64,000 bases of DNA, taken from contig CM054158.1 of NCBI GenBank assembly GCA_028751875.1, positions 10,574,320-10,638,319 of the forward strand. The letters run 5' to 3'. The stretch is from Rapana venosa (Eukaryota > Mollusca > Gastropoda > Neogastropoda > Muricidae). Both the position numbers and the translations under genes were made by a program. This document shows positions 28,816 to 54,267 of this stretch, one piece after another; positions within the stretch are counted from its first letter, which is position 1; each line of letters opens with the position of its first letter. Under the pieces are notes generated by a model. It was not told the DNA's origin. It worked only from the letters and a program-made list of their open reading frames with translations, and did not search any database.

Positions 28816-29299
28816 GGGAACAAGAATATGTAGGGGCGTTCATACGTGCAAGCATTTGTATGAACTCTTCCTTTAACCAACATTAGTTAAAAGCTGCATA
28901 ACATCTTACAAGGGCTGATTCCTGTTTTCTGCTACCCATGGCCTTGAAATTCGATTTGGTGACAGTTTTTAAATTTTTATTACATATCAATTTGGGGACA
29001 GTTTAATTTTATATTATATATCTCTGTTTGTGCAGAACCCCGCCCACCCAGTGCTGCAGGTGAAGCAAACAGTGACAGGACACACCAGTGGCAAATCTCC
29101 TACACCAGGACCAAGCTTTCTGGAACAGTGCTGATTGTGCTCATCACTTTCTTTTCTTTTTTCTTTCTTTCTTTTCTTAAATCAATTTTCCAGACGTGCT
29201 AATTTTAGTTGTGCTTTTTATTCATATTTTGGGATCTTTTATTACAGGTGCTTTTCTGAGTCTGACCTCGCTTTTTGGGTGATTAGTCGCTCGTTTTTT

Positions 29300-30218
29300 G
29301 CTATGAGACTGCCCATCTGTGTTTTCGAGATCCATCAAACCAACCACGTAATGCACGTACCAACTGTACAGTTGAGATCTCACTGCAGAACCAAGCGTCA
29401 CCCACGTGTTCACGCGGCCCTCATCTTCGTGCTTTTCCTTGCCCATCCCTCTGGTGCAGTCACTGTCACCATCTGCACTGTGTCACAGTGTCCCAAGAGT
29501 AAGAAGTGTTTCCCGCTGTGACAGAAAAGAGTGTCGTCTGCTTCTGTTCCCTCACCTCCAACAGACCTGGCAGTATACTCCGTATGCATTGTTGGCACTC
29601 CATTCTGTATCTCAAATGCATCCTTGTGCCAGCTATGGACGGTTCGCGATCTTCGTGGTCTTGTTCCTGAAGTGAAAGTAGGGGGGCGCTATGAAAATTT
29701 GTTATCTTGGTTTTTCACAAGGTTTTACCTTCTAAGTTCAGTGATAAACTTGCACACCCTGCACTTTTTTTTTATTACCTCTGTGGAACCAAATTTAAAG
29801 AAACAGTAAATAAGCTTTTTCGGAAAATGAGCTTGTCAAACACCCTCAACAGCCTTAAAGGTCCAAGCAACTAGAAAAGTTCAGGGAACACTGAATCATC
29901 TGAAAATGAAAACTTGAAGCAACAAACAAATGTTTTAAAGATGTTTTTGTGGAAGAAGGCGTTTGATGAATTCATATTTGGTAGATTACAAACCACAGTA
30001 AACACGTCTGTCAATGACCAGAAAACACAACTGTTCACATAAAATCACCACTTTTAATGTCTTCCAAACAAACTTTGAGAGAAGTATAGACCACACATTT
30101 CAAAGAGCATGATGAAGCTACGTTTTTCTTACGGATTTTAAGGAGAAACAAAAAAACAAACACAACGAACAGTGCCACCATTCCCAACTCATCAGTACAA
30201 CACAAAGTAGTCCTGTTT
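29300..30218 (+). other. upstream flank of the satellite, no firm gene
   Basis: Two consecutive open frames are visible: 29303-29521 (72 residues, MRLPICVFE start) and 29531-29809 (92 residues). The inverted rendition at 3.2-3.8 kb does not preserve either frame cleanly. The second part (29.75-30.04 kb) reads KFKETVNKLFRKMSLSNTLN in a third frame, with a similar KFLKNSNKLFGKS segment in the 3.2-3.47 kb minus-strand frame. That is the only hint of coding potential. Confidence 0.35.
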
Positions 30219-31332
30219 ATGATAACTCGTAACAATAGCAAGATACACGTGATTAAAGTATGAATAAACTGTGACATAGTCGAATAACTGTGACTATAGT
30301 ATGAAAACTGTGATTTGTACCCATACATAACCTCGTGCACTATACCATGACAACGTGACTATAGTATACAACTGGGACTATAGTATGATCACTGTGACTA
30401 TAGTATGATCGACAGTGACATAGCTACTACATAACCTGCACTATATATGATAACTGTGACTATATATGATAACTGTGGCTATACCATTAATAACTGTGAC
30501 TATTAGTTATCGATAAATGTGACTGTACCCCATAATAACTGTGATACTCAAGTATGATAACTGAGACTATAGTATGATAACTCTGTGACTAATACGTTAA
30601 TGGTAACCTGTGACTGTTCCCATAATAACTCGACCTGTAATCTAAAATACCTGTGACTATAGCAATGATAACTGTGACTAATAGTATGATAACTGTGACA
30701 CTACAGTATGATCATCCTGTACACTATCTACTGACCTAATAACTGTGACTATAGTAATGAATAACTCTGGCAAGCCACCAAGATAACTGTGATTAATAGT
30801 ATGCACTACGCCCGGACAAGACGACAATACACTATTACTATATACAATATCGCATAACTGTGACTATAGTATGATTAACTGTGGACTAATAGTATGATAA
30901 CTGTGACTGTAGTAATGATAACTGTGACTTTATATGAGAACTTGACTATATCATAGATAACTGACCATAGTATGATTGTGAGTTGCCTATACTTGTGTTC
31001 TGTGACTCTAGCAAGATAACTTGTGACCGTGGCATGACAAACTGTGTAACCGTGCATGAATAACGTGTGACTGTGTACAAACTGATAACTTGTGACTGTG
31101 GCGCATGATAGTGTGACTGTGGCATGATAACGTGTGACTGTGGGGATAACTTGTGACTGGTCTGCGGATGATAACTTTGTGACTGCGTGGCATGATAACG
31201 TGTGATTGTGGCGTGTCACTTGTGACTGAGGCATGATAACGTGTGAACTGTGGCATGATAACTTGTGATCCGCGATGCTGATAACTAGGACTGTTGGTCA
31301 TGCGATAACCTTGTGACTGTGCCATGATACCG
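30219..31332 (+). repeat. 20/21-bp satellite, second rendition
   Basis: Same 20-bp then 21-bp structure as 25335-26183, but with scattered inserted bases. The private monomers (AAAATACCTG, CTCTGGCAAGCC, CGCCCGGAC, CACTATTACTATA) occur in the same order as in the first array. This argues for one underlying array written twice rather than two independently evolving arrays. Confidence 0.9.
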
Positions 31333-31432
31333 CCATCTGCTGTCACATCTCTGTCACATCTCCACTGCTGTCACAGATCTCTCCTTCACATCGTCCACTG
31401 CTGTCACCATCTTCACTGCTATCACATCAAAT
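31333..31432 (+). repeat. 28-bp tandem repeat at the satellite edge
   Basis: Same CACTGCTGTCACATC block as at 26184, with extra inserted bases such as CACAGATCTCTCCTTC. Confidence 0.8.
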
Positions 31433-32663
31433 CCTCTTTTACTTTTCTGAAACTAATGACAAGAACAAAACGCGGAAAGACCATGGATTGGCGTTCTCAC
31501 GAGTCATTATTCCTCCGTGGAAGCCGGGGGCCTCTCAGTATTACCAGCAATCCCCCCCTACTGGAAATTCTGACTAGATTCCTCCTCTCTCTATCCTTCT
31601 CTTTCCTAACTCTGCCTTTCTCTTTTCTCATGTCACCTCCTACTTGTCACATCTATTTTCTTGGTCCATTCTCCTGCCCTCTTTTGCCCAGAATAAACAT
31701 CAAAGGACAACAATTTTCTCTCTCATGAATCGGGATGCATTGTACCTGACTTGTCAGGCGCTTAACGGAGCAGGCAACGCATTTTATCGCTCATATGAAA
31801 AGTCAATGGTTGTTGCTGTATGAGCGATTCAATGCGAAGAAGAAGAAAGCTCCATTATCCAAAATCTTCTATTAAAGATATTTTTTATCGTTCAATTCTG
31901 TACAAGTCTACTGTAGATCTCATATCTAAGGAATTCAACAAAATAATCTGACTGCGTCATAGATGATAGAGAATTTGGCATTGAGTTTTTGAAAAGACGT
32001 GGGTGGGGGTAATTGCCTCATGCTTGCCGTCCTTCTTAATACTTTAATGACCACACCGGCATAGGCCCTAACACTATCTTCATAATATTGAATAGAGGAA
32101 CAGTTTGTGGCGTAACCCAAAGCGCCAATTCACATGCACCACGCTCTATGGAACTTAACAAGGCCCATTGTCTTTTCTACAACCATGATCAAAATTGTCC
32201 CTTAACTGAAGGTCAAACTGATCTCTGCACCTCTGTGGGTTCCTCCATAAGGCTTATGGGACTTTTTTGGACTCTGGTCGGCTTCTACCAAGTGAGCGTC
32301 GCTGTGGCTCATGGGAAGACTGAGACTCTACAACAGCTCCCAGTTCATTACTATTTATGAATGCCACTTTTGCGAACGTCTGTTGCTCACAATTACCTGA
32401 CTAACACGCAGGTGTCTGTACTCTCGGGCCCGTTAGACGCCGGATCTATCTCAATATGATAGAATGTGTAGAGTCAGCCTCTGATCTAATAGTCCTGAAG
32501 CACAATGCACGTCCCATACACAGCAGCCTGCAATCTACATGTACATCTTCACTGAACCTCAGTCACCCACGACAACATCCCCAGTCAGATATTCTATATT
32601 TACCAGGCAGAAATCGAAACATCAGCAACTCAGGTCTCCAGTCTGCATGAACTTATCTCTCCA

Positions 32664-33311
32664 ATGGCTTCAACACACCTCCCCGCAACAATGATGACGC
32701 ACCTCATTAATTTTTTCAATTACTGCGGAATCAACACAGCAAATACACATCCATCACAGGCAATAAATGGACCCCACAACTTCATCAGACAATATCCCCC
32801 GCATGTTTTCGAGCCCCAAGCCCAGGCTTGCGGCACTTCAGAGGATCAATATATCCCTCCAATGGAAACGGCGTCCCTCTACAACGCAGACCGTAACTTA
32901 TCCAATAATGTCCCTTGCCCAAGTGGTGTTCGCAGAAAACTCACGTTTGATAAGAACCACACGCACATTTTTACAACCGCCAGTGGGGCCCCACGCAATG
33001 ATTTATATTCTGACCCGTTCCTCCCAGCCCAAAGTGGCAAGACCGGTTAGCGTACAGCCCATATACGCCGACCCCCTACACAACGACAGCCTCTCAAAGT
33101 CGACCCACCTACACGCCCACTGACGCACAGAGGCCGCACCCTTACCACTGCTTCAAAAAGGGTATCCACACATCGATTCCATTGTCCCCTGGATACCCTT
33201 ATTTTCATCATCGCAGATTTCAGGAACGCCAACCTACCCCTCAACCCCTGAACTTGACGGTGTCTGGCCATCAGACAAACCCTCCCACGTCTACCAAGTG
33301 ACGACCACAGT
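32664..33311 (+). CDS. unrecognised open reading frame, possible exon
   Basis: A 128-residue open frame (MASTHLPATMMTHLINFF start) runs to 33050. A one-base shift continues it as proline/threonine-rich sequence with YTPT, TYTPTD and NPPTST segments, closing near GTCGAATTCTGA at about 33311. Upstream, 32456-32650 is also open. Composition is not simple repeat: it has mixed H, N, P and T with scattered cysteines. I recognise no domain. Collinear but more damaged versions occur at 27.42-28.03 kb and 13.63-14.03 kb, and an identical one at 49048. It may be an exon or a retroelement ORF1; neither is established. Confidence 0.3.
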
Positions 33312-33489
33312 CGAATTCTGAATTCACAATGATGTTCACTACCTAGTTTTTTACCATTTCTCCTGAATTACTTGCCTGATTGTCATTAGTTATGAGTATA
33401 GTCACACTTACATAATTATGTGTGTGGCCCTGAAACTAGTCTGTCTTCTGTCAAGGTCCTTTAAAACATTGATACTCATACACGGGTGC

Positions 33490-33705
33490 ATGGTGTGGTG
33501 TGGCGTGGGTATGCTTCGCACACGCACGTACGTGTTCGCGTATGTGCGTACGTATAATAATAAGTTTTTTCTGCTCTTCTAGTCACATGTTCTTTTTTCA
33601 CAGTTATGTGTTTGTGTGTGCCGCTGTGTGTTGTGTGCGTGTCGGTATGTGTTGGCGCGCATGCGCACGTGTGTGTGTTTGCTTGTGGTGCTGTGTGTTT
33701 TGTGC
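33490..33705 (+). repeat. GT-rich microsatellite
   Basis: TGTGTG runs with ACGCACGTACGTGT and GCGCGCATGCGCAC palindromic stretches. The cysteine/valine-rich frames that overlap it are composition artefacts. Confidence 0.85.
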
Positions 33706-34039
33706 GACATTTTTTATTTGATCACGCTCCATTTTGCAATGTATCTAACCAATATGAAACCTAGCCTTTTTTGTGTCTTTGGAGATAATTTATCGTGTAT
33801 CAATCTGCCTGCGTCCAGTACTGGCTCAATTACCCTTCATAGGATGACATTTAAGTGTTTTTGAGAGCACTTGACTTGACTTGAAATGTAATACACCTTC
33901 TACCCCACCGCCCACGCCCCCACCCCTACCAGCACTCTGTCCGCCCCCAGCCACTTCACCCAGCTCAACGTTTCTCTCTCTAGCGTACACTAGAAACTCT
34001 GCGGTGTGCGATCAAATTCCACCACCTAATACTCCACAT

Positions 34040-34180
34040 TAAGTGTGTGTGTGGGGGGTGGGGTGGGTGTGGTATGCCAAGCGTGCACCTATGTGTGCCG
34101 TAATGCTGTGGCAGGTACGTTGTGTGGTGTGTGTGTGTGCTGTGTGAGAGTTGTGTGTGTCTGGGTGTGTCCGTGTTGTG
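34040..34180 (+). repeat. GT-rich microsatellite
   Basis: GTGTGTGTG with GGGGTGGGG interruptions, followed by a GTGTGTGTGTGCTGTGTG run. Confidence 0.85.
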
Positions 34181-34861
34181 AGCTCTGTCGTAACAAGAAA
34201 TATGTAGGTAGCGTTCATACTATGCAGTGCATTTTTGTATGAACTCTTCCTTTAACAATCATTCTACGTTAGAAGCTGGCATAACATCTACAAGGACTGA
34301 TTCCTGTGTTCTGCAACCCATGGCCCTTGAAATGTCCGCCTCTATGGTGACAGTTTAATTTGTATTACATATCAATTTGAGACAGTTTAAGTTTATATTA
34401 TATATCTCTTGACATTTGTCGCTCGAGCACGCCCACCCATCGCAGTGCGACGCCAACAGCAGACAGGACCACACCAGTGGCCAACTCCTACACCAGGTCC
34501 AAGCTTATCTGTAGCAACAGTGCTGATTGTGCTCATCACTTTCTTTTCTATTTTTCTTCTTCTTCTTTCTATTCTCTTAAATCATATTTTTCCAGGAACT
34601 GTGCTGATCGTAGTTCGCTCATATTTATTCATATTCTGGCATCTTTTATTTACAGGTCTTTACTGTATTGTATCTGACCTCGCTTGTTGAGGGTGATTTA
34701 GCGGTCGCTCTGTTGTTTGTTGTTTGTTGTTGCGTTGTTGTTTTAATCCCCTTTTCTCTCGGTAACCAACCACGCCACCTGTCGGCATTCTTCCCCCCCA
34801 AACTAACAGTCGGCCTGATTGAGTTAACACACAAATTGTGTGCTATAGAGTTGTAACAGAT

Positions 34862-35222
34862 TTAACTCCTTTTCTCTCCCCCCACCCTTCCACCCCTATA
34901 TCCCTATCAACCTCTTCACTTCCGCCTGACACCCCCCCCCCCATCCTGTACCCTCACACCTTCCCCCCCTCTCTTCCGTCCACCTGCCCTCCCCCCCCCC
35001 TACCTCGACCTCACGACCCCCCCTCTCTTCTCAGGTCAGTCCTCTCCTCTCAAGCCTCCCTCCCACCCCCTTCATACACTCGCTCGCCTCCTCACTCCTT
35101 CTCCTCTCCCACTTACCCCACCTACTCACTTCCCCCCTCCCCCCCCCCCCCCTCCCCGCTAATATTATTCCATTGCCTCTTCTCTTTCTCCTCTCCTAAC
35201 TTCCCCATTCTTGTATCACACT
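34862..35222 (+). repeat. C/T-rich tract
   Basis: About 360 bp of nearly G-free C/T sequence with C runs up to about 15. The 128-residue proline/serine-rich frame across it reflects composition and is not called a gene. Confidence 0.85.
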
Positions 35223-35969
35223 AATACATCCTCACTGACAAACTAAACCTCAATAGATGTATTCAAGACCAATTTCCATGGCCCCAAGGGATGGATTACG
35301 AATTTGCCACTAATTAAACCAGCAGTCAATAAAACAACTCGAAGCTATAACCACACGACTCATCACAACAAGCAAACCATTTTCAACACATACTAGGGCT
35401 TTCCGATTCAAGACTTTCAGCAACACATAACCAACACTGACATTCCATTCACCAGGATATAAAATCGTGCGAGCAGATCCACACACAGCCCAAAGAACAC
35501 AGGTCTCCTAATCTATATGAGTGAGTCTGAACTTTCACCACGTCCTGTTCCATCTTGAACGATACGAAGTAGAATCCAACCTGGATTGAAGTTCACTATA
35601 AGACAAAGCGTTGCAGCACCTATTTATAATACGGGTTCTGCTACAGAAATCCACCAGAAATAGAAAAATTGGAAGACAAAATTTGACTCCATGATGAATG
35701 TAGACCAATTAGAACATCTACAGGTGAAAATTTCTTACAAGGTTTTTTTTTTGAAAAAATTTATTTAATATTGACCTCGCAGCAAAAGTAAACAATCAAC
35801 TTCGGACCCAGTTTATGAACTCATTCAAATCATCACCAATTAGTTACTTAAACACAAGAGTCACTATCAAAATCTAACACAATTAATTGATTACAATCTA
35901 CATGTCAGACCCTAAAAATATCATAGTCAATGTCTGTCCCTGTATATAACAGCAGCGAGATTCCCTACC

Positions 35970-38245
35970 CAGCCTCCTCTACCACATGGTCACCAAAAGG
36001 ACACAAAAATTCCTAAAACCTGGCCATCTAAACCACAATAACCTAACGCTGACTCTCGGCAAAATATAATGAAGCAGACTTTTCTTACTAGAGTTTATAG
36101 CAGTTCCATGCTCTCTGGACAATCATCTCAATATTACTTCGCGATCCAGTCCTGGCATTAGCAGTCTCGGGATAAACGTGTTTTTACTGAACTCTATAAC
36201 AAACCTGCCCCATTAAAAACCATAAAGGATCAAACATTGTCCCGGAAAGCGCTTGGTTCTACAAAAGGCACTAGAAGAAGCATGCTTATCTTATGAGAAC
36301 CTTATTAAAAGAACATACAATATTATGAGCGAGGCATAAAACAAAAAGAAATACCATAAACTCACAAAAACGGCGAGAGAATAAGGCAAATATCTCTCCA
36401 AGACTACTTCATCCAATCAAAATTCCAAGCCTGTAACGGAAGGCAATCAATCAAATAACAAATAAACATTTGTCTTCCAAGCTAATGTATTCAAAGTGAA
36501 TTTTTCTGCAGAAAAAGTTTAACAATCATTCATTATATTTCATCTAAAATAATTAGCATTGAATAACTCAAAGTTCCAATTGCGCTCTCAATGAACTAAA
36601 ACAATACTGCCAAGAAAAAGCCGAATTCCATCGCACACTCACATACAATTCATAATACTGCTTCTGACGTCTATACAACTCTATCTGACTCACATCAACA
36701 AACCAAGTACGCTTGGACTCTCGAATGGAATAGATGTCAGAATAAGAAACTCTCAGCTCCAGTCTTCATACAGACCACTCTGACACATATCTATAAACTT
36801 TGCCTTCATAAGAACTATTTCCCAACGCCTTCAAAACTGCCTAAGGTGATTCCCGAACCACCAATCTGGAGACACCTTCCGATCCCTCAAAATTATCAGC
36901 GCCAATCTCTATTATATCTCCCCTTTTCAAACCCTTTGGAAAAAACATAATGATAACAATTCACCAGTCCACATATAGATATTAACAACTTACTTCATCC
37001 AAAATCACATCTGTGATTTAGAAGAAATCATCATGGTGCCATACGGAATTGACTAGTCCCTTGTAGACAAACGGCTTGTCAAACATTAAGACAATAAATT
37101 TTGTGGAGTATTATTTGTAGATTTCAAAAAAGCATCTATCGATTCACAAATTGCCACCCGCAGACTTCTCATTCTACAAAGCTAGACATATATAATCTCT
37201 CTCACAAATACTTTTAGAACTTCCTTCACCCTTTCTCTTATCTTACAAACAGTCAACACTGGTTTCAACATACACCGTCCTCATCCCACACAAAACCCAT
37301 TCATTATGGAGTATCACAGGATCCATCTTAGGATCTCTCTCTTTTCAATTATACATAAATGACCTTTCCTCTCCATATCTCAATCCCAAATCGCGTCACA
37401 CCTCTCTTTGCTGATGACACAACATCACATACAACCATACCCGATACTTAACCTCTCTTCGCAAAGATCTATTGCAAAAAAGCACTGATGATCTTGTCAA
37501 ATGAACTTAACAAAACCACACCGTCCCCACTCCCCCCAAAACAAATACATGTAATCACTTCCATGCACAAAAGCGCCAAAAATCTATCTCATAACTCTAT
37601 CTTCACACTCCATATTAAAAATGAAGCAATCGAACAAGCCTCTCACTTTACAAAGTTCTAGAGTCCAACAATTGATGAAAACTCAGCTGGTACCCATCAC
37701 ATACCCCAACTGAGCAAATGCATGTCTCAATAGAGTATACCAATCTTCTGACCCCTACAATATCAAACATCTCTCCTCTTGACTTTCATCACAGATAACT
37801 ATTCTTTCAACTTATATACAAACTTCAAACAGATTACGCTTCAATCCCCTTCTTGTAGCATTCTGCTATTGCAACACTAATGAAATCATTATTAATTATG
37901 TGTAAACGTAGCTCTTAAACTGGTCCTTCTGAAGAAACTTACTAGAAGAGAGACTTCTACTCATTAAATATTATTCCCTACACCAAAGACGAAGATTCTA
38001 ACAAAGCTCCTATGATGTTTTAATGATCTACTTTACAGGAACTCCTGGTTCCCTCATCCTTAAAAGACAAGTTCCCAATGAATCACCTTCCAGAAATACT
38101 GAAAAGCCGATGTTGCTCGAACCCACAATAGATTTGTTTAAATCTAGCTTACTTTCACTCTCAGGGCCTGTGCTTGTGGAAATCCCTTCCTGACTCATTT
38201 AGACATCACCCAACTCAACCTCTTCAAAAGGTCTCATCTTTTCAT
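35970..38245 (+). pseudogene. LINE-2: non-LTR retrotransposon ORF2, broken
   Basis: The linker region reads VFTELYNKPAPLKTIK (about 36.18-36.23 kb) and KALEEA, with NKYHKLTKTARE in shifted frames. The reverse transcriptase shows LFVDFKKA at 37111-37134 (motif A), GVSQGSILGS at 37308-37337 (motif B), LYINDL at about 37349-37366 and LFADDTT with catalytic FADD at 37407-37418 (motif C). The C-terminus reads LCLWKSLPDS then frameshifted TSPNSTSSKG, the WNSLP type that ends many CR1/Jockey-like proteins. Frameshifts and stops are frequent. It may be inactive, or the errors may be technical. Upstream, 35.25-35.97 kb is probably the same element but unrecognisable. Confidence 0.8.
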
Positions 38246-38329
38246 CACTTGATGCATCATAAATAAACTAATCACCTTGATCCGTTGGAAACAAAGTAAA
38301 TCTATCCTCCCCTTCACATTACACCCCAA

Positions 38330-38400
38330 TTATCTCTCTCTACTCTCTCCATCCTCCTCCTCTCTCTCTCTCTCTCTCTTCGTCTCTCTCTCTCTCTATT
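38330..38400 (+). repeat. CT microsatellite
   Basis: CTCTCTCTCTCTCTCT run between the LINE-2 ORF end and its 3' tail. Confidence 0.9.
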
Positions 38401-38407
38401 ACCATTA

Positions 38408-38527
38408 AATGTACCCTTACGGGCGGGGACTGGCATGTAAAAAAAGAGCACATGTGTGCTATTCATCTTCCTCGAAATAAAACTATAATCTGTCATTGCG
38501 CGCATTGTCCTTGTCATTGTCCTCTTC
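38408..38527 (+). mobile_element. LINE 3' tail, copy 1
   Basis: A block of GGGCGGGGACTGGCATGTAA, then GAGCACATGTGTGCTATTCAT, CCTCGAAATAAA and TGTCATTG-type units ending in GTCATTGTC. The same block is at 39770-39868 in a shorter form. A 3' end built of short repeats after an AATAAA-like hexamer is usual for LINEs that prime on microsatellite tails. Its position after LINE-2's C-terminus, in the same strand, makes it LINE-2's 3' end. Confidence 0.7.
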
Positions 38528-38612
38528 CTCTCTCCTCTCCCCTTCTCTCACTCCCCTTCCTCCTCCTCTCTCTCTCTCTCTCCTCTCCCCCTCTCTCCTC
38601 CTCCTCCTGTGG
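38528..38612 (+). repeat. CT microsatellite
   Basis: CTCTCTCTCTCTCTCC runs directly after the LINE 3' tail. Possibly the insertion target or an expanded tail. Confidence 0.9.
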
Positions 38613-38819
38613 TATGAGAGTGAATGTTTACTTGTAATGCTTTGTGCCTACTTCCAAACTGCCATCAAAAATGATTTCTTTCCACTATTCTTTCTTCTTT
38701 ATCATGACTCTAGAGCGCGATCTTAACATACAATATTAAATCACAGTGAGTGCTAATGGCTGCTAGCTCGCTTGATGAAATGAAAATTTGTATGCAATCA
38801 TTCATATCATCACATATGC

Positions 38820-38905
38820 TACTCTCTGTACACTCTCTGTCCTCTCCCGTACCCCTTCCTCCCTCCTCGTCACTCTCTCTCTCGTCACCACTCTCTCTCG
38901 TCTAT
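38820..38905 (+). repeat. CT-rich tract
   Basis: CTCTCTGT and CTCTCTCTCG runs, the third CT tract of the region. Confidence 0.8.
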
Positions 38906-39164
38906 CCTTTTAATGTTTGCCTTATAGAATTTAATTGTCCTGTTTACAATAAGTATCCTTTGAATACTTTTATTTAATATTTCAGTTCTTTTAAATGCCG
39001 AAAGTCTTTGACTGTAATTTGCGATTAGTGAATGTTTTATTTTTGATATCTTGTTTTGAGTGTACCAATTACATGTATAGCTAATTCCAATGTGCAGATG
39101 TCCTCTCTTCCTCCATGACTATACTCCATATCATCATAAAGAGACCTCGATTCGGCATTGATGC

Positions 39165-39262
39165 ATGGTGTGCGAGTGTGCGCGCCCGCGCGTGTGGTTG
39201 TGTGACGTGTGTGTGTGTGTGCGTGTGTGTGTCGTGTGTGTGTGTACGTGTACGTGTGCATG
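39165..39262 (+). repeat. GT/CG-rich microsatellite
   Basis: A GCGCGCCCGCGCGTGTGG block followed by GTGTGTGTGTG and GTGTACGTGTACGTG. Confidence 0.85.
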
Positions 39263-39402
39263 GAGTCAACGCAAAATTGCTTTTACAATAATTCTCCTAA
39301 GTCTGCTATTACAATATTGTGTTTTGTGTCGTTTACCTATTGCTGTACTGCTTCCCATAACCAGCACAATAAATTTTTGACGTTTCTTTCCTGCTAGCCA
39401 AA

Positions 39403-39762
39403 ATGATACTATTTACATGTTTCTTATCCTTTAATTATGGAGATTTTGCTTTTGCGTTTGGTCTCTGCTTTGGTTTGAGGCTTCGGTTTTTCTTTCTGCG
39501 AGGGGGGGTTCATTTGGTTGCTCCCCTCTCCCCTTGGTTGGTTTGCCGAGCTTTTGACTTTCTCTTGTTTCTTTGCTTTCTTTTCGCGCGGCTTGATTCT
39601 GTGTTTTTCTGTCACATTTGGCTTACTTTCTTCCTTGTTGCTTTTTTCTCTCTCTCTTTTTCGGTGATTTCTTGTCGGGCCTTTTGTGTAGATATATTTT
39701 CCCCGTATACTGTCTGTGAGGCTATCTGCGCTATGGACGTTATTTTTATATTATTATCATAA
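39403..39762 (+). other. T-rich open frame, probably not a gene
   Basis: A 119-residue frame very rich in F, L and C lies between the GT tract and the second LINE tail. Its composition follows the T-rich DNA. In the degraded rendition the same stretch (21.24-21.72 kb) is also T-rich. It could encode a hydrophobic peptide, but nothing supports that. Confidence 0.15.
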
Positions 39763-39769
39763 ATTATAT

Positions 39770-39868
39770 TCCTAAGGGCGGGGACTGATGAACAAAGAGC
39801 ACATGGGTGCCTATATTCATTATCCTCGAAATAAAAAAAATGTCACTCGTCATTGTCATTGTCCCCCA
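39770..39868 (+). mobile_element. LINE 3' tail, copy 2 without body
   Basis: It carries AAGGGCGGGGACTGATG, AAAGAGCACATGGGTGCC, TCATTATCCTCGAAATAAA and GTCATTGTCATTGTC. This is the same 3' tail as at 38408, about 1.35 kb downstream, with no RT sequence before it. It is either a strongly 5'-truncated insertion or a second processing end. Confidence 0.7.
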
Positions 39869-39874
39869 TCATCA

Positions 39875-40300
39875 TCATGCAATACAAAAAAACATTGCCT
39901 GTGAATCGGTGGCCCGCCAGTAGTCCTCCGTCTCATTGTGACCACACCCTTCAGGATTCCCTCTACAACTTCTTGTGCCTGTTGTTGAGTTTTTGCGTGT
40001 CAGGCCTTTGGGGTTGAGGTTACTTGAGAGAGGGTCGTAGTAGGCACGTTGGGTGGTCGCCAACTCTGAGCGTGGGTCCGACTCATCTAAGCATGGCTCC
40101 GAGCGACCTGAGCTAATACACTGGTCGTCTAGAGTAGGGGGACTGGAGAAAGGGGTTGACAAAGCTTCGAAGGCGCCCAAAGGACTCGGAATCTGAGGGA
40201 TCGAGTTACGCGTGAGCGGACGCAGGGGGCTTAGTAGGTTGTGTCCCTGCGACAATAGTAGCTCAGAACAGAGCAGCACTGAACTCTCACCAAGTGACAA
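39875..40300 (-). CDS. unrecognised 141-residue open frame
   Basis: It starts MSLGESSVLLCSELLLSQGH and continues through PLTRNSIPQIPSPLGAF and SSGRSEPCLDESDPRSELA to a stop. Composition is mixed, with S, P, R and E and six cysteines, and not low complexity, so it is a better coding candidate than most frames here. I recognise no domain. It abuts a LINE 3' tail and could be part of another retroelement. Confidence 0.3.
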   Translation of the reverse strand: MSLGESSVLLCSELLLSQGHNLLSPLRPLTRNSIPQIPSPLGAFEALSTPFSSPPTLDDQCISSGRSEPCLDESDPRSELATTQRAYYDPLSSNLNPKGLTRKNSTTGTRSCRGNPEGCGHNETEDYWRATDSQAMFFCIA

Positions 40301-40504
40301 CCAGCAGCAAGTGCAGGGCCCGTCTGGCTGGTGGCACTGTGGAGGTCTGACATTGAAATGGGCTCCCTGTGGACGGCGACCCTGAGGATGCGAACATGTC
40401 GAATCTGGGTAATGCGCAACTCTGGGCTAGGGATTGGGCCAGCTACAAAAAACAATTCTTCTGTAAAGTTCTCACATTCGAAAAACATGAAGTGGTGAAT
40501 ACGG

Positions 40505-40566
40505 ACAACTAATACATAATAATAATAATTATAATAATAATAATAATAATAACAATATATATAATA
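40505..40566 (+). repeat. AAT/ATA microsatellite
   Basis: TAATAATAATAATAATAA-type run ending in ATATATATAATAAATG. Confidence 0.9.
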
Positions 40567-40574
40567 AATGGAAC

Positions 40575-40766
40575 GTGTCCTCAGTCCTAACCTCTTGCCA
40601 AAAGACAAATCTCAAACGCATCAAAAGAACCCCCAGCTTCAGGCCAAACTTAGACAGAAGACTTGGCGACCTGAGCGCCCAACAGATGAGACTTCAGGCT
40701 TGCCAAGCAGCCAGAGTCCCTTCACTCCCCACTGAGGAGGATGAGCGCGTGAGTCTTCACACAATG
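40575..40766 (+). CDS. short unrecognised open frame running into the 47-bp satellite
   Basis: The frame reads TNLKRIKRTPSFRPNLDRRL and DLSAQQMRLQACQAARVPSL, and TEEDERVSLHTMVLDD, before entering the satellite. The charged, non-repetitive composition suggests an exon or retroelement fragment. No domain is recognised, and the later part (to 40928) is satellite translation. Confidence 0.25.
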
Positions 40767-41697: not shown

Positions 41698-41699
41698 AT

Positions 41700-41960
41700 G
41701 AAAGAGGAACTGAAACGAACCAACTGATGGATGGGTGCAGTACCTTGCCGTGGTCTCATGTCTGGAAGACCTGCATGGCACCAGAACAGGCAGTTTGTTG
41801 TTTCCTATGGGCAGCACGGGACAAGCATCTCCACACTGTTGACCAAAGCTGTCTGTGCGCCGACTGCTCTTCATGTAGTACTTTCCAATGGTGGTGACAC
41901 ACAAAGCACATTCAGCACAGATGCTGTCAAAGTTACCCCATGAACGTGGATGAAATCGGA
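41700..41960 (-). CDS. unrecognised cysteine-rich open frame
   Basis: Within a longer minus frame (41518-41982), the non-satellite part reads SWGNFDSICAECALCV, TTIGKYYMKSSRRTDSFGQQ and CGDACPVLPIGNNKLPVLVP. Five cysteines lie in about 55 residues, three of them closely spaced (CAEC then C) and two as CGDAC. The plus strand is also open here (41731-41943), so the coding strand is uncertain. The C-terminal part of the frame is satellite translation. Confidence 0.25.
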
Positions 41961-42137
41961 ACAAAAATAAACAACTCAACAAGCATGAACTGCCAGCAGA
42001 AAAGATAAATATAAATCTGAAGCACCATTAAGGTCCTCTCTGGCTGATGGCCCCAGAGGCGGCCTAACACGAATCCTCTGGGCCACGTGGAGGACCTTCG
42101 CCGCGTTCTTCTGCCTTCTCTGCACAGAGCGAGCTTG

Positions 42138-42480
42138 TTCTACCCGACGCCCCCTCCCCCCCCCCCCTACCAACAGGAGGAGATCGGAAGCAGACACCAC
42201 ACCGCCTTGGTGAGGCCATCCAGACATTTGAGGTATATGAACACTATCTCACATCACAAGAGATGTTCTCAGCAGCAGCTCCGTCTGATGACGTTCATGC
42301 AGCAGTACAAAGCATGCACTTCTACGTGGAGGCAAACCTCCCATCCTCTCTCTTTAATCTCAGTTTATGTCCACATTGGCTCTGCCTCTGTCCTGTCTTA
42401 CTGCCTCTCTCGCTCCTCCCCCCCCTCTCTCTCTTCCCCACCCCCCCCCCTCCCCCCCCCCCCCCCCCCCCCCCCCCGCA
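42138..42480 (+). repeat. C-rich tracts with weak ORF between
   Basis: C runs occur at 42150-42168 and 42418-42478 (over 30 C with few interruptions). The frames across them are proline-rich by composition. The DNA between (42.18-42.41 kb) is ordinary and unassigned. Confidence 0.7.
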
Positions 42481-42559
42481 TATTTTCAGCAGCTCCCCAA
42501 TGATTTTGGATTTCTTTTATGTTAGTTTCTTCTCAACTCAGAGTTTCTCAAACTAGAGG

Positions 42560-44780
42560 TCTCTTTCCGACAACTTGGGACTGACATTATCATTCTGCCT
42601 CTCTCTTACACCAATAGGAGATGTAAATTATCCAAACAACTATAGAGTATATCCCTCTGCTGTGAGCTAGCAAGAAAAATTTACAGTAATTTTTATTAAT
42701 CACAGACTTCAAGAATGAGCGGATAGAAGCAAATAATACCTTATGGTGAAACTTCAAGCAGGCTTTAAACGCCAACTACTCAACTATAGACCTCATATAT
42801 TTACTTTGATTCCTTTGTCACAGAAACAGATCTTCACTCAATCGTAGTTGTATGGTTGCTTTTTTAGATTTTGGTAAAAAGCGTTCGATACTGTCAATAA
42901 GAAACTAACCTGGAATATCGGTTAAAAAAATGGTATTCAAGCGAACATTATTGAATGCTTTAATGAACATCTGTACAGATCTTCGCCCAAAGCCAGAATT
43001 AGATACTGGAGAGTAATAAATGACTGAATGCATTCCTTGTACTTTAGGTGTAAACAACGCTGATGTTTGTAGCCCTATTTTGCGTTTCTTTTCCTTTTTA
43101 TTAATGAATTAACTGCAGAAGTTGTCTAATAATGGAAAACACAATGGAGCACGGTTTATTGGTGATATGATGGAATTATTCCATTCTTCTTCTGGATGAA
43201 GATGTTCGTTACTGATGTCTGAAACTAAATTGGCTTGCAAACTCAATTCTGCGAATCAGTTTATTCTTCACATGCTCTTCTGCAGCTCTACCAGTTAAAC
43301 ACTACCCATGTCAAAAAGGCCAATATAAGAGTACTTTACGACAAAGGGCGTTATTTGAGTTATAAGAAAAGCTCGGACTTATAATCTGACAACTTCACGC
43401 CAGTGTACCACCACTGTATAAATATATAGGATGTATCTTGCAACAAGACTTAGTTTTTACGTGGTCCATTTAAAAACAGACCTATCAAGCAAGCTCAAAC
43501 GTGCATTGTCTTTATTATAACAAAAGTTATCCCTCCCTTAGAAAATCAGTCTTTTTGAATTATTATAAAATTATTTGATGCTCAGGTTCAGCCCATCAAC
43601 ACAGTAACGAGCTGAAACTATGGGGTCTTTACTATCCCTCTGAGGCATACCACTGAGAAAAAATCATTTTATTTGCACTAAAAAATTTCTTGGGTAAAAT
43701 AGTGAAACACCAATGATCTTGATCTATGCAGAAACTAATCTCGCTATCCAATTTGTCAATTCCTCATCGGTGAGATGTTATTTGTACAGGATGAAAAATT
43801 AGAAACGGATAATCATAGGTTACCAAAAAACCAGCATTACTATGTAATATATATCTAGATAATGGGGTCAAAATAAATGGGTAATATCCAAAACTGAGGT
43901 TCAAATATGTGAGTTAGGATTATGCTTAATCGTGGTTCAATCAAGAGTAGAGATCAAATGGGTTTATACGAGTACTGCGCACTAGCCGCTCTCTCTTCTT
44001 CTTCATTGGCGCATCGATGATGACCATCTATACATCCTGGGATTGGGAGGGTCCCCCCCTTCCTCCTCTCCCTCCTCCTTCCCCCCTCCTCCTCTCTGCA
44101 TTCCGCCCTCCCATTTCTGGTGGTGCGAAGATGACTTCCTTCTGGCCATCCGCGCTTGAAAAGTTCTTGAGCATATGGACATGTAATAGTATACCATATA
44201 CCTATACTATACCCTACCTACCCCTATACCATACCCTAATTGATAGGTTGTAGGTGGCCGGAGTTTCCAGTCATACTTCAGGAGAGTGCGATCCGTTTTA
44301 AGTTTGTATATGCAGTTTCGTTTATTAGTAAAATTTCCTGTACTACTTATTCGCGTCACATGCTCCCATGGTAGACAATCTAAAACATATTAGACAAAAA
44401 TTTAGAGATTTATCGCGAGTGGTCTAACTTGTAGGTGCCTCCAATCTTTCGCTATAGACAACACACTGTGAAACAGATCTTCCTTGTCCATTATGTAAGG
44501 GATTCCTGTCACGATTAACAACGAAGTTCATTTGAGGTCACTGATGTTGTCCTATGTTAAACACTGACCTAAGAACTCCAGTTGATACCCCAACAACAAA
44601 TATACTATGTGAGCATGTCCTTCCAAGCCTTAGAACTTGTATAATTATGTCACTACTAACGAACCATTAATAAGCGACTAGCTCATTCTTATTTTGCGCT
44701 ATAACTTCTTTTAAATTAAAATCTACCGTATCTGTACTTGAGGTATTCATCTTCTGTTCATAATGTTCCTATACAACATT
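42560..44780 (+). pseudogene. LINE-3: non-LTR retrotransposon ORF2, heavily broken
   Basis: Ordered remnants in shifting frames: VKLQAGFKRQL (about 42.75 kb, fingers), FLDFGK then AFDTVNKK (about 42.86-42.90 kb, motif A, one base inserted), INELTAEVV at 43109-43135, LKRALSLL, FSPSTQ, KKFLG (about 43.68 kb), IYAETN (about 43.72 kb) and FVNSSSVRCYLYRM. A late LPCPLCK segment at about 44479-44499 is a zinc-knuckle-like pair preceding the usual C-terminal tail. The order matches LINEs whose C-terminus carries KKFLG, TPND-like, YAET and then CPxC motifs. Motif C is not clear. It is dead as written. Confidence 0.7.
44050..44100 (+). repeat. CT/C-rich tract inside LINE-3
   Basis: CCCCCCCTTCCTCCTCTCCC-type tract between the YAET part and the CPLC part of LINE-3. 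The surrounding 44.0-44.25 kb, including a run of TATACCATATACC-like units, does not look like LINE sequence and may be an insertion or consensus failure. Confidence 0.6.
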
Positions 44781-45044
44781 TTTTTGGAATGTGATTATAT
44801 ACACACAACCCCTTCATGAGGAGCAAGGCCATAATTGAATTACAACTTCGCGCATCTCGCCTCTTCGTGAGCTGAACACTCCTCACACTAAACATAACGA
44901 CCAAAACCAACAACACCAAGAAAACCTCCGATACCCTTTCACAAACAACATAACTTCGTATTTATCCCTTTAATATGGAGCAGTCCGCACCCTACATGCA
45001 TAGCATACGCGTCACCTGACGCACGCGCGTTGTGCTAATGTATG

Positions 45045-45470
45045 TATTTTTTGAGTGTGTATACCCCCGCGCGCGCGCCGCTCGCTGTGTGTTCTAGCGC
45101 CCGCGTGTCTCGTCGCGTATGTACGTGTGTGGGTGTGTAAGTTTCTTGTGTGTTAGCTTGCGTGCCGGGCATGTAACTATATAACATCTTTTTTCTTATT
45201 TCTTCATCTCCTCTCTTAAAAAACTTTTACTCACTAAACAGTACCCGCACGCTAAGCATACACACAAGAACTATCACACACCCACACACGTACATACACA
45301 CAGACACGCGCTCGCTGTTGTGGTTCAACCGCGTTCTTGTGTTGTACGTGTCTCGTGGCGTGTAAGTTCTTGTGTGTATGCTTGCGTGTCTCGGCATGTA
45401 TCTTAAAAAGCTTTTCATTTCTCATTCCTTTTAAAAACCTTCTTTATAACACAGTACCATTGTTCCCTTG
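45045..45470 (+). repeat. GT-rich repeat in three copies, the middle one inverted
   Basis: Copy 1 (45100-45235) and copy 3 (45340-45465) are direct repeats sharing CGTGTCTCGT, TTCTTGTGTGT, GCTTGCGTG and CGGCATGTA, followed by CTTAAAAA and a CACAGTACC or AACAGTACC end. Between them, 45248-45300 is the inverse complement (AAGCATACACACAAGAAC and CACACCCACACACGTAC). Copy 1 and the inverted copy could form a long hairpin. Confidence 0.75.
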
Positions 45471-45683
45471 TGTGGTAAAGTTTGTGCAGTCTCACTCTCA
45501 ATCGTTCAAAGCAGCGCTGCAATGTAGAAGGAAAGTTGAAGTGATGCTGTCTTTTCTTCCTTCCTTCCACCTCTTTGTTGTTGTTGTTTCTCTTTCTTTT
45601 TTTCTCTGTGTTTTGTTTGTTTTGTTTCTTTCTTCTTTGTTTATTTCTTCTTCTATTCTACCTTTGTTTGTTTCTTTTCCACC
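45471..45683. other. T-rich DNA left of the exact repeat
   Basis: GTTGTTGTT and TTTCTTTC-rich sequence without a gene, ending at the left edge of the 7.68-kb repeat. Confidence 0.6.
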
Positions 45684-46602
45684 GCTATGAGACTGCCCAT
45701 CTGTGTTTTCGAGATCCATCAAACCAACCACGTAATGCACGTACCAACTGTACAGTTGAGATCTCACTGCAGAACCAAGCGTCACCCACGTGTTCACGCG
45801 GCCCTCATCTTCGTGCTTTTCCTTGCCCATCCCTCTGGTGCAGTCACTGTCACCATCTGCACTGTGTCACAGTGTCCCAAGAGTAAGAAGTGTTTCCCGC
45901 TGTGACAGAAAAGAGTGTCGTCTGCTTCTGTTCCCTCACCTCCAACAGACCTGGCAGTATACTCCGTATGCATTGTTGGCACTCCATTCTGTATCTCAAA
46001 TGCATCCTTGTGCCAGCTATGGACGGTTCGCGATCTTCGTGGTCTTGTTCCTGAAGTGAAAGTAGGGGGGCGCTATGAAAATTTGTTATCTTGGTTTTTC
46101 ACAAGGTTTTACCTTCTAAGTTCAGTGATAAACTTGCACACCCTGCACTTTTTTTTTATTACCTCTGTGGAACCAAATTTAAAGAAACAGTAAATAAGCT
46201 TTTTCGGAAAATGAGCTTGTCAAACACCCTCAACAGCCTTAAAGGTCCAAGCAACTAGAAAAGTTCAGGGAACACTGAATCATCTGAAAATGAAAACTTG
46301 AAGCAACAAACAAATGTTTTAAAGATGTTTTTGTGGAAGAAGGCGTTTGATGAATTCATATTTGGTAGATTACAAACCACAGTAAACACGTCTGTCAATG
46401 ACCAGAAAACACAACTGTTCACATAAAATCACCACTTTTAATGTCTTCCAAACAAACTTTGAGAGAAGTATAGACCACACATTTCAAAGAGCATGATGAA
46501 GCTACGTTTTTCTTACGGATTTTAAGGAGAAACAAAAAAACAAACACAACGAACAGTGCCACCATTCCCAACTCATCAGTACAACACAAAGTAGTCCTGT
46601 TT

Positions 46603-47716
46603 ATGATAACTCGTAACAATAGCAAGATACACGTGATTAAAGTATGAATAAACTGTGACATAGTCGAATAACTGTGACTATAGTATGAAAACTGTGATTT
46701 GTACCCATACATAACCTCGTGCACTATACCATGACAACGTGACTATAGTATACAACTGGGACTATAGTATGATCACTGTGACTATAGTATGATCGACAGT
46801 GACATAGCTACTACATAACCTGCACTATATATGATAACTGTGACTATATATGATAACTGTGGCTATACCATTAATAACTGTGACTATTAGTTATCGATAA
46901 ATGTGACTGTACCCCATAATAACTGTGATACTCAAGTATGATAACTGAGACTATAGTATGATAACTCTGTGACTAATACGTTAATGGTAACCTGTGACTG
47001 TTCCCATAATAACTCGACCTGTAATCTAAAATACCTGTGACTATAGCAATGATAACTGTGACTAATAGTATGATAACTGTGACACTACAGTATGATCATC
47101 CTGTACACTATCTACTGACCTAATAACTGTGACTATAGTAATGAATAACTCTGGCAAGCCACCAAGATAACTGTGATTAATAGTATGCACTACGCCCGGA
47201 CAAGACGACAATACACTATTACTATATACAATATCGCATAACTGTGACTATAGTATGATTAACTGTGGACTAATAGTATGATAACTGTGACTGTAGTAAT
47301 GATAACTGTGACTTTATATGAGAACTTGACTATATCATAGATAACTGACCATAGTATGATTGTGAGTTGCCTATACTTGTGTTCTGTGACTCTAGCAAGA
47401 TAACTTGTGACCGTGGCATGACAAACTGTGTAACCGTGCATGAATAACGTGTGACTGTGTACAAACTGATAACTTGTGACTGTGGCGCATGATAGTGTGA
47501 CTGTGGCATGATAACGTGTGACTGTGGGGATAACTTGTGACTGGTCTGCGGATGATAACTTTGTGACTGCGTGGCATGATAACGTGTGATTGTGGCGTGT
47601 CACTTGTGACTGAGGCATGATAACGTGTGAACTGTGGCATGATAACTTGTGATCCGCGATGCTGATAACTAGGACTGTTGGTCATGCGATAACCTTGTGA
47701 CTGTGCCATGATACCG
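46603..47716 (+). repeat. 20/21-bp satellite, exact copy
   Basis: Base-for-base copy of 30219-31332. Confidence 0.95.
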
Positions 47717-49047
47717 CCATCTGCTGTCACATCTCTGTCACATCTCCACTGCTGTCACAGATCTCTCCTTCACATCGTCCACTGCTGTCACCATCTTCAC
47801 TGCTATCACATCAAATCCTCTTTTACTTTTCTGAAACTAATGACAAGAACAAAACGCGGAAAGACCATGGATTGGCGTTCTCACGAGTCATTATTCCTCC
47901 GTGGAAGCCGGGGGCCTCTCAGTATTACCAGCAATCCCCCCCTACTGGAAATTCTGACTAGATTCCTCCTCTCTCTATCCTTCTCTTTCCTAACTCTGCC
48001 TTTCTCTTTTCTCATGTCACCTCCTACTTGTCACATCTATTTTCTTGGTCCATTCTCCTGCCCTCTTTTGCCCAGAATAAACATCAAAGGACAACAATTT
48101 TCTCTCTCATGAATCGGGATGCATTGTACCTGACTTGTCAGGCGCTTAACGGAGCAGGCAACGCATTTTATCGCTCATATGAAAAGTCAATGGTTGTTGC
48201 TGTATGAGCGATTCAATGCGAAGAAGAAGAAAGCTCCATTATCCAAAATCTTCTATTAAAGATATTTTTTATCGTTCAATTCTGTACAAGTCTACTGTAG
48301 ATCTCATATCTAAGGAATTCAACAAAATAATCTGACTGCGTCATAGATGATAGAGAATTTGGCATTGAGTTTTTGAAAAGACGTGGGTGGGGGTAATTGC
48401 CTCATGCTTGCCGTCCTTCTTAATACTTTAATGACCACACCGGCATAGGCCCTAACACTATCTTCATAATATTGAATAGAGGAACAGTTTGTGGCGTAAC
48501 CCAAAGCGCCAATTCACATGCACCACGCTCTATGGAACTTAACAAGGCCCATTGTCTTTTCTACAACCATGATCAAAATTGTCCCTTAACTGAAGGTCAA
48601 ACTGATCTCTGCACCTCTGTGGGTTCCTCCATAAGGCTTATGGGACTTTTTTGGACTCTGGTCGGCTTCTACCAAGTGAGCGTCGCTGTGGCTCATGGGA
48701 AGACTGAGACTCTACAACAGCTCCCAGTTCATTACTATTTATGAATGCCACTTTTGCGAACGTCTGTTGCTCACAATTACCTGACTAACACGCAGGTGTC
48801 TGTACTCTCGGGCCCGTTAGACGCCGGATCTATCTCAATATGATAGAATGTGTAGAGTCAGCCTCTGATCTAATAGTCCTGAAGCACAATGCACGTCCCA
48901 TACACAGCAGCCTGCAATCTACATGTACATCTTCACTGAACCTCAGTCACCCACGACAACATCCCCAGTCAGATATTCTATATTTACCAGGCAGAAATCG
49001 AAACATCAGCAACTCAGGTCTCCAGTCTGCATGAACTTATCTCTCCA

Positions 49048-49695
49048 ATGGCTTCAACACACCTCCCCGCAACAATGATGACGCACCTCATTAATTTTTT
49101 CAATTACTGCGGAATCAACACAGCAAATACACATCCATCACAGGCAATAAATGGACCCCACAACTTCATCAGACAATATCCCCCGCATGTTTTCGAGCCC
49201 CAAGCCCAGGCTTGCGGCACTTCAGAGGATCAATATATCCCTCCAATGGAAACGGCGTCCCTCTACAACGCAGACCGTAACTTATCCAATAATGTCCCTT
49301 GCCCAAGTGGTGTTCGCAGAAAACTCACGTTTGATAAGAACCACACGCACATTTTTACAACCGCCAGTGGGGCCCCACGCAATGATTTATATTCTGACCC
49401 GTTCCTCCCAGCCCAAAGTGGCAAGACCGGTTAGCGTACAGCCCATATACGCCGACCCCCTACACAACGACAGCCTCTCAAAGTCGACCCACCTACACGC
49501 CCACTGACGCACAGAGGCCGCACCCTTACCACTGCTTCAAAAAGGGTATCCACACATCGATTCCATTGTCCCCTGGATACCCTTATTTTCATCATCGCAG
49601 ATTTCAGGAACGCCAACCTACCCCTCAACCCCTGAACTTGACGGTGTCTGGCCATCAGACAAACCCTCCCACGTCTACCAAGTGACGACCACAGT
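49048..49695 (+). CDS. unrecognised open reading frame, exact copy of 32664-33311
   Basis: See the first copy: a 128-residue open frame followed by a one-base shift and a P/T-rich tail. Identity to the first copy gives no independent support for coding. Confidence 0.25.
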
Positions 49696-52353
49696 CGAAT
49701 TCTGAATTCACAATGATGTTCACTACCTAGTTTTTTACCATTTCTCCTGAATTACTTGCCTGATTGTCATTAGTTATGAGTATAGTCACACTTACATAAT
49801 TATGTGTGTGGCCCTGAAACTAGTCTGTCTTCTGTCAAGGTCCTTTAAAACATTGATACTCATACACGGGTGCATGGTGTGGTGTGGCGTGGGTATGCTT
49901 CGCACACGCACGTACGTGTTCGCGTATGTGCGTACGTATAATAATAAGTTTTTTCTGCTCTTCTAGTCACATGTTCTTTTTTCACAGTTATGTGTTTGTG
50001 TGTGCCGCTGTGTGTTGTGTGCGTGTCGGTATGTGTTGGCGCGCATGCGCACGTGTGTGTGTTTGCTTGTGGTGCTGTGTGTTTTGTGCGACATTTTTTA
50101 TTTGATCACGCTCCATTTTGCAATGTATCTAACCAATATGAAACCTAGCCTTTTTTGTGTCTTTGGAGATAATTTATCGTGTATCAATCTGCCTGCGTCC
50201 AGTACTGGCTCAATTACCCTTCATAGGATGACATTTAAGTGTTTTTGAGAGCACTTGACTTGACTTGAAATGTAATACACCTTCTACCCCACCGCCCACG
50301 CCCCCACCCCTACCAGCACTCTGTCCGCCCCCAGCCACTTCACCCAGCTCAACGTTTCTCTCTCTAGCGTACACTAGAAACTCTGCGGTGTGCGATCAAA
50401 TTCCACCACCTAATACTCCACATTAAGTGTGTGTGTGGGGGGTGGGGTGGGTGTGGTATGCCAAGCGTGCACCTATGTGTGCCGTAATGCTGTGGCAGGT
50501 ACGTTGTGTGGTGTGTGTGTGTGCTGTGTGAGAGTTGTGTGTGTCTGGGTGTGTCCGTGTTGTGAGCTCTGTCGTAACAAGAAATATGTAGGTAGCGTTC
50601 ATACTATGCAGTGCATTTTTGTATGAACTCTTCCTTTAACAATCATTCTACGTTAGAAGCTGGCATAACATCTACAAGGACTGATTCCTGTGTTCTGCAA
50701 CCCATGGCCCTTGAAATGTCCGCCTCTATGGTGACAGTTTAATTTGTATTACATATCAATTTGAGACAGTTTAAGTTTATATTATATATCTCTTGACATT
50801 TGTCGCTCGAGCACGCCCACCCATCGCAGTGCGACGCCAACAGCAGACAGGACCACACCAGTGGCCAACTCCTACACCAGGTCCAAGCTTATCTGTAGCA
50901 ACAGTGCTGATTGTGCTCATCACTTTCTTTTCTATTTTTCTTCTTCTTCTTTCTATTCTCTTAAATCATATTTTTCCAGGAACTGTGCTGATCGTAGTTC
51001 GCTCATATTTATTCATATTCTGGCATCTTTTATTTACAGGTCTTTACTGTATTGTATCTGACCTCGCTTGTTGAGGGTGATTTAGCGGTCGCTCTGTTGT
51101 TTGTTGTTTGTTGTTGCGTTGTTGTTTTAATCCCCTTTTCTCTCGGTAACCAACCACGCCACCTGTCGGCATTCTTCCCCCCCAAACTAACAGTCGGCCT
51201 GATTGAGTTAACACACAAATTGTGTGCTATAGAGTTGTAACAGATTTAACTCCTTTTCTCTCCCCCCACCCTTCCACCCCTATATCCCTATCAACCTCTT
51301 CACTTCCGCCTGACACCCCCCCCCCCATCCTGTACCCTCACACCTTCCCCCCCTCTCTTCCGTCCACCTGCCCTCCCCCCCCCCTACCTCGACCTCACGA
51401 CCCCCCCTCTCTTCTCAGGTCAGTCCTCTCCTCTCAAGCCTCCCTCCCACCCCCTTCATACACTCGCTCGCCTCCTCACTCCTTCTCCTCTCCCACTTAC
51501 CCCACCTACTCACTTCCCCCCTCCCCCCCCCCCCCCTCCCCGCTAATATTATTCCATTGCCTCTTCTCTTTCTCCTCTCCTAACTTCCCCATTCTTGTAT
51601 CACACTAATACATCCTCACTGACAAACTAAACCTCAATAGATGTATTCAAGACCAATTTCCATGGCCCCAAGGGATGGATTACGAATTTGCCACTAATTA
51701 AACCAGCAGTCAATAAAACAACTCGAAGCTATAACCACACGACTCATCACAACAAGCAAACCATTTTCAACACATACTAGGGCTTTCCGATTCAAGACTT
51801 TCAGCAACACATAACCAACACTGACATTCCATTCACCAGGATATAAAATCGTGCGAGCAGATCCACACACAGCCCAAAGAACACAGGTCTCCTAATCTAT
51901 ATGAGTGAGTCTGAACTTTCACCACGTCCTGTTCCATCTTGAACGATACGAAGTAGAATCCAACCTGGATTGAAGTTCACTATAAGACAAAGCGTTGCAG
52001 CACCTATTTATAATACGGGTTCTGCTACAGAAATCCACCAGAAATAGAAAAATTGGAAGACAAAATTTGACTCCATGATGAATGTAGACCAATTAGAACA
52101 TCTACAGGTGAAAATTTCTTACAAGGTTTTTTTTTTGAAAAAATTTATTTAATATTGACCTCGCAGCAAAAGTAAACAATCAACTTCGGACCCAGTTTAT
52201 GAACTCATTCAAATCATCACCAATTAGTTACTTAAACACAAGAGTCACTATCAAAATCTAACACAATTAATTGATTACAATCTACATGTCAGACCCTAAA
52301 AATATCATAGTCAATGTCTGTCCCTGTATATAACAGCAGCGAGATTCCCTACC

Positions 52354-53363
52354 CAGCCTCCTCTACCACATGGTCACCAAAAGGACACAAAAATTCCTAA
52401 AACCTGGCCATCTAAACCACAATAACCTAACGCTGACTCTCGGCAAAATATAATGAAGCAGACTTTTCTTACTAGAGTTTATAGCAGTTCCATGCTCTCT
52501 GGACAATCATCTCAATATTACTTCGCGATCCAGTCCTGGCATTAGCAGTCTCGGGATAAACGTGTTTTTACTGAACTCTATAACAAACCTGCCCCATTAA
52601 AAACCATAAAGGATCAAACATTGTCCCGGAAAGCGCTTGGTTCTACAAAAGGCACTAGAAGAAGCATGCTTATCTTATGAGAACCTTATTAAAAGAACAT
52701 ACAATATTATGAGCGAGGCATAAAACAAAAAGAAATACCATAAACTCACAAAAACGGCGAGAGAATAAGGCAAATATCTCTCCAAGACTACTTCATCCAA
52801 TCAAAATTCCAAGCCTGTAACGGAAGGCAATCAATCAAATAACAAATAAACATTTGTCTTCCAAGCTAATGTATTCAAAGTGAATTTTTCTGCAGAAAAA
52901 GTTTAACAATCATTCATTATATTTCATCTAAAATAATTAGCATTGAATAACTCAAAGTTCCAATTGCGCTCTCAATGAACTAAAACAATACTGCCAAGAA
53001 AAAGCCGAATTCCATCGCACACTCACATACAATTCATAATACTGCTTCTGACGTCTATACAACTCTATCTGACTCACATCAACAAACCAAGTACGCTTGG
53101 ACTCTCGAATGGAATAGATGTCAGAATAAGAAACTCTCAGCTCCAGTCTTCATACAGACCACTCTGACACATATCTATAAACTTTGCCTTCATAAGAACT
53201 ATTTCCCAACGCCTTCAAAACTGCCTAAGGTGATTCCCGAACCACCAATCTGGAGACACCTTCCGATCCCTCAAAATTATCAGCGCCAATCTCTATTATA
53301 TCTCCCCTTTTCAAACCCTTTGGAAAAAACATAATGATAACAATTCACCAGTCCACATATAGA
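52354..53363 (+). pseudogene. LINE-2 linker region, truncated by the repeat edge
   Basis: Exact copy of 35970-36979. The reverse-transcriptase motifs that follow in the first copy are missing here. The sequence switches within ATATAGA to unrelated DNA. Confidence 0.85.

Positions 53364-54230: not shown

Positions 54231-54235
<5 letters not shown>

Positions 54236-54267
<32 letters not shown>

Follow-up and report, generated by a model that had tools for sequence, protein, structure and literature searches.

Loci that occur twice in one assembly through read errors or wrong gap filling have been described as homotype false duplications, and chimeric inserts of raw-read length have been described alongside them (PMC9516828). 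A second system that invites comparison is the gap filling performed by PBJelly, in which, by its description, a gap's supporting reads and 1 kb of the flanks are assembled into one consensus; an overfilled gap of this type is one in which read sequence extends a contig end into the gap with no identifiable far join (PMC3504050).

In the 64,000-nucleotide stretch of Rapana venosa DNA that we analysed (the window), a locus likewise appears twice in one assembly, and read sequence extends a contig end with no identifiable join on the far side. Unlike homotype false duplications, whose copies are as a rule not identical and have gaps between them (PMC9516828), the second copy here is identical to the first in every letter, noise included, and lies at a binary offset. 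Unlike the product of PBJelly as described (PMC3504050), the insert at 29300-53363 retains its overlap with the flank and repeats part of the read. A duplication at an offset of 16,384 does not figure among the titles found by our full-text literature search, although we make no claim that it is absent from print. The repeat is an assembly artefact, and there is no duplication in the organism; the larger error is the entire insert, of which the repeat forms the end. With a probability of roughly three in four, we hypothesize that 29300-53363 was sliced from one long read that had not been corrected, and was pasted untrimmed after an accurate contig end by a program whose source index ran modulo 16,384 during writing.

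Dimensions of the exact repeat

The first-pass annotation had reported a perfect duplication, and its description is borne out in each particular: 29300-36979 (copy A) and 45684-53363 (copy B) agree with no mismatch over 7,680 bases, the bases flanking the block differ (T/C on the left, T/G on the right), so that it is maximal, the offset between the copies is 16,384 (2^14), and the spacer between them, 36980-45683, is 8,704 bases long. The contig that contains the repeat starts at 25335, after a gap of 500 N (24835-25334), and all its features discussed here lie on the forward strand. Its accurate end, 25335-29299, is a locus read again inside both copies. There follows what we take to be the whole inserted raw-read slice with its repeated beginning (29300-53363; 24,064 bases, or 94 x 256), consisting of copy A, the remainder of the 16,384-base block, which is the spacer and contains a raw-read-like tandem array with 17% indels (40823-41673), and copy B. 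The next sequence extends from 53364 to approximately 60800.

The block is the longest exact direct repeat among the 229 pairs of at least 24 bases in the window, the runner-up among the 60 of these 229 that were listed measuring 94 bases. Scanning the window at an offset of 16,384 in steps of 256 bases, we observed identity above 45% in 31 of 185 steps, every one of which overlaps the block; the remaining 154 have a mean identity of 25% and a maximum of 34%. The chance that length and offset are both multiples of 512 is 1/512 squared, or about 4e-6. Among the 8,153 other pairs of shared 16-mers in the window (counting 16-mers with at most 20 occurrences), which are largely satellite-derived and not independent, the offset is a multiple of 256 in 48, against 32 expected.

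Both copies share every difference from an accurate version of the locus

The accurate sequence 25350-29299 has its counterparts at 30426-34719 (copy A) and 46810-51103 (copy B), with about 79-80% identity (384 mismatches and 533 gap bases, 79% identity). Compared with 26300-29299, the two copies give the same result, namely 134 mismatches, 274 insertion events and 101 deletion events at an identity of 0.798, and 509 of 509 differences are common to both over the 2,999 bases compared. Because A and B share every difference from the accurate version, which neither two loci nor two separate reads would do, they represent one string of base calls and not two loci. The presence of this accurate locus and the complete sharing of differences support the view, advanced from the letters alone at first reading, that a data-handling fault is to be preferred to a segmental duplication.

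The differences in the duplicated sequence are insertion-heavy (as measured for 31440-34718), and the indel rate of a 20-base satellite is 2% in the accurate sequence (25375-26186) versus 17% in the insert (30218-30976). Single-pass PacBio RS reads are given an error rate of ~15%, skewed to insertions, in PMC3504050, and the error pattern of the insert appears to resemble that of one single-pass PacBio (CLR-like) read. The satellite, with a unit of about 20 bases, ATAACTGTGACTATAGCATG, is found at 25375-26186, at 30218-31440 and, on the reverse strand at the left of the window, at 1-2999; occurring in accurate and noisy versions, it provides an internal measure of how error-prone each part is.

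These observations bear on two explanations that place the repeat outside the assembly software. A real segmental duplication has nothing in its favour beyond the identity of the copies itself, whereas independent errors are not what we find: all 509 differences, mostly indels of the sequencing type, are shared. If the noise were independent, the full identity of two noisy copies would have a log10 P of about -1190, assuming a per-base agreement of 0.7 (between two noisy versions of the locus it is 0.68-0.76). As the right edge of copy B is also unsupported (see below), we regard a real duplication as practically negligible. A single-molecule sequencing artefact, such as two passes joined through a missed adapter, is very improbable. 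About 1% of PacBio reads do have missed adapters (PMC3504050), but these join opposite strands, each pass having its own errors, while the two copies here lie on the same strand and do not differ in a single letter.

Homopolymer statistics, a weak discriminator, place 34719-36979 closer to accurate sequence, a point against the single-read account. Homopolymer-run and CpG statistics separated accurate from raw sequence so weakly that, as a measure of raw quality, they were set aside in placing the borders.

Borders of the insert

Accurate homology stops at 29299, and its final bases lie in a T-rich tail, which fixes the border to within about 15 bases. The version of the locus on the other strand, 2062-3825, matches the insert only from 29316 on among the matches listed. 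From these two positions it follows that the start of copy A is the start of the slice, within that error. The matches listed here and below were the best 70 of those starting no later than 61000 and ending no earlier than 2900, and, in a second listing, 61 matches of at least 300 bases that start no later than 60500 and reach outside 1-2900. The insert starts further upstream in the locus, by about 1.1 kb, than the accurate contig does and then reads through that contig a second time, which argues that the slice was not trimmed. We had also considered the 68% match of 2062-3821 (reverse) to 29317-31292 as one of raw against raw sequence; this was dropped, as the non-satellite part, 3000-3825, gives 76% with an excess of insertions in copy A, and as the open frames found at 5813-7028 point to fairly accurate sequence in this part of the window.

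The position of the left border also weighs on the idea that a finished, unwrapped sequence file was damaged, 15 blocks of 512 bytes being overwritten with data from 16 KiB earlier. Such damage would agree with a length and an offset that are both multiples of 512, but it gives copy A no reason to start at the border between accurate and raw sequence, as it does within about 15 bases. Since the repeat begins at this border, we consider it more likely that the fault occurred while the slice was being written, and file damage is an unlikely account.

About 17 kb of sequence with stretched homopolymers lies to the left of the N gap (7565-24834; mean run 4.7 at 8001-10000 and about 1.8-2.2 from there to 24000) and carries the neighbouring locus once more, at very poor quality and without a change of orientation. 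With homopolymers collapsed before alignment, 9500-15300 against 25335-29299 scores 173.1 (11171-14980 to 26523-29294), where the highest of 60 control stretches reaches 108.3. The score of 15154-21831 with 35101-39876 is 357.7, compared with 152.1 for the reversed control. Among the matches listed by BLAST without collapsing, 15207-18495 against 35144-38396 (662 bits) crosses 36979|36980, and the match of the same stretched sequence to copy B ends at 53334. From its matches to 25335-29299 and 35101-39876, the stretched copy leads on from the accurate contig end to the second half of copy A, and past it. Our first local alignments were discarded, their scoring being so lenient that reversed sequence scored nearly equally, and were replaced by stricter scoring and by control joins.

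Using 13000-18600 as the witness, a join of 29299 to 34719 scores 248.0 versus 211.1 for the window's order; control joins at 29299 score at best 229.3 (n = 40) and 224.3 (n = 200), none of the 200 reaching 248.0, and the window's own order is equalled or beaten by 14 of the 200. At 36979|36980 the native order scores 190.1 versus 135.3 for a route via copy B; here the best controls score 149.3 (n = 40) and 171.1 (n = 200), none of the 200 reaching the native score, and 39 of them reaching that of the route via copy B. As tests of independent support, these comparisons place the joins 29299|29300 and 53363|53364 below the joined and native orders, by a witness that is itself of low quality. 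We conclude from the edge scores that the native right flank belongs to copy A, 29300-36979, and not to copy B, and that the joins 29299|29300 and 53363|53364 are unsupported. The witness is one poor sequence, and as the stretch around 36979 looks transposon-like from its motifs, part of the second match could stem from another copy of such an element; the match of the stretched copy to the accurate contig directly before it speaks for one locus.

Beyond copy B, the sequence from 53364 on is apparently accurate at its start, and a 16-base array at 53439-53528 is free of indels. A BLAST search for homology of the insert to 53364-60800 gave, in the best 12 and best 11 rows under two scorings, short matches of simple or low-complexity repeats only. 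In the stricter local alignments, three of five pairs against that stretch score above the reversed control (108.7 versus 92.8, 129.5 versus 106.5 and 106.4 versus 60.7). These scores were taken as no evidence of homology, as a supposedly unrelated pair scores 153.5 and 115.2 and the BLAST matches are short ones of simple or low-complexity repeats. The overlap expected between the slice and the sequence from 53364 on would be invisible, because the part of the slice containing it would be lost.

Possible origin of the insert

We propose that a slice of one uncorrected long read would have been attached to the contig end at 29299 with the overlap left in, and that the writing program would have intended 24,064 bases. 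Its index would have run modulo 16,384, by way of a re-used buffer of 16,384, an offset that was not advanced or a wrapped counter, and bases 0-16383 would have been written, followed by bases 0-7679 again; the true final 7,680 bases of the slice would thereby have been lost. Copy B, 45684-53363, would then be the first 7,680 bases written falsely a second time, presumably where the true next 7,680 belonged. The remainder of 7,680 is a multiple of 512, and a second cause is therefore needed, for which we suggest rounding of the slice length to the next multiple or a lower one of 256, such as would result if an assembler binned reads by 256. The assembler wtdbg2 is described as handling reads in 256-base bins (PMC9902641).

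Binning of this kind might also produce the repeat with no copying fault: a false cycle in the graph of these 256-base bins could make the assembler's layout use one read a second time, so that bins 0-63 are followed by bins 0-29. Every length is a multiple of 256 (64 + 30 bins), as such a cycle would give, and satellite DNA at the locus invites false cycles; however, the join would have to fall precisely on bin 64, which is a power of two, between neighbouring units that do not overlap, and we hold this explanation to be improbable. PacBio HDF5 files have a chunk of 16,384 elements. We rejected this as the cause, as the borders of chunks have no reason to coincide with the start of the insert.

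Returning to the index modulo 16,384, a universal wrap is argued against by the 17,270-base stretched piece, 7565-24834, which has 30% identity at the predicted place of a wrap and no 16,384 repeat, although this piece may not be an insert of the same kind. It is doubtful that the fault is systematic, with an assembler or gap filler writing unpolished single-read inserts longer than 16,384 with the index modulo 16,384. Were it so, public genomes made with that program would carry a recognisable class of false duplications, perfect and offset by exactly 16,384, with real sequence displaced by each. The pattern is easily scanned for elsewhere, as a perfect repeat of noisy sequence with an offset of 16,384 and lengths that are multiples of 256.

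The repeat has no biological importance, but annotation of the region risks counting paralogues that do not exist. The first-pass annotation rightly warned against treating the copies as paralogues, and its warning should be widened: the whole of 29300-53363 is unreliable, 45684-53363 is false, and the latter place probably lacks some 7.7 kb of true sequence. The stale 16-kb buffer that it offered as an example fits the letters, but is only one of several mechanisms that yield them.

Other elements of the window

The locus is present on both strands to the left of the N gap, at 2062-3825 (reverse) and 11171-21831 (forward), and for this reason the gap seems to join pieces of one locus. The arrangement resembles a palindromic read with a missed adapter, a class put at about 1% of PacBio reads (PMC3504050), and may reflect such a fold.

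The stretch 6398-6697 matches Pfam RVT_1 (E 1.9e-6; 28.2 bits, just under the curated 29.6) and is probably the reverse transcriptase piece of a eukaryotic non-LTR element. From its motifs, we take 36600-37450 (52984-53334 in copy B) to be a candidate frame-broken reverse transcriptase; in copy A the stretch extends beyond 36979, and in copy B it ends abruptly at 53363. Four of four further pieces had no match in Pfam, and the one piece tried had none in the PDB. A match to Mob1/phocein at 36600-36950 (E 0.0007; 20.1 bits, below the curated 27) and a weak one to a MOB2 chain (E 0.26) were taken as chance, and neither Mob1 nor reverse transcriptase is an established name for the stretch up to 37450. 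Ten further frames, nine overlapping the insert and one outside it, had no match in Pfam. Towards the right end of the window, 61217-63982 consists of long telomere-like arrays of CCCTAA variants with interspersed units.
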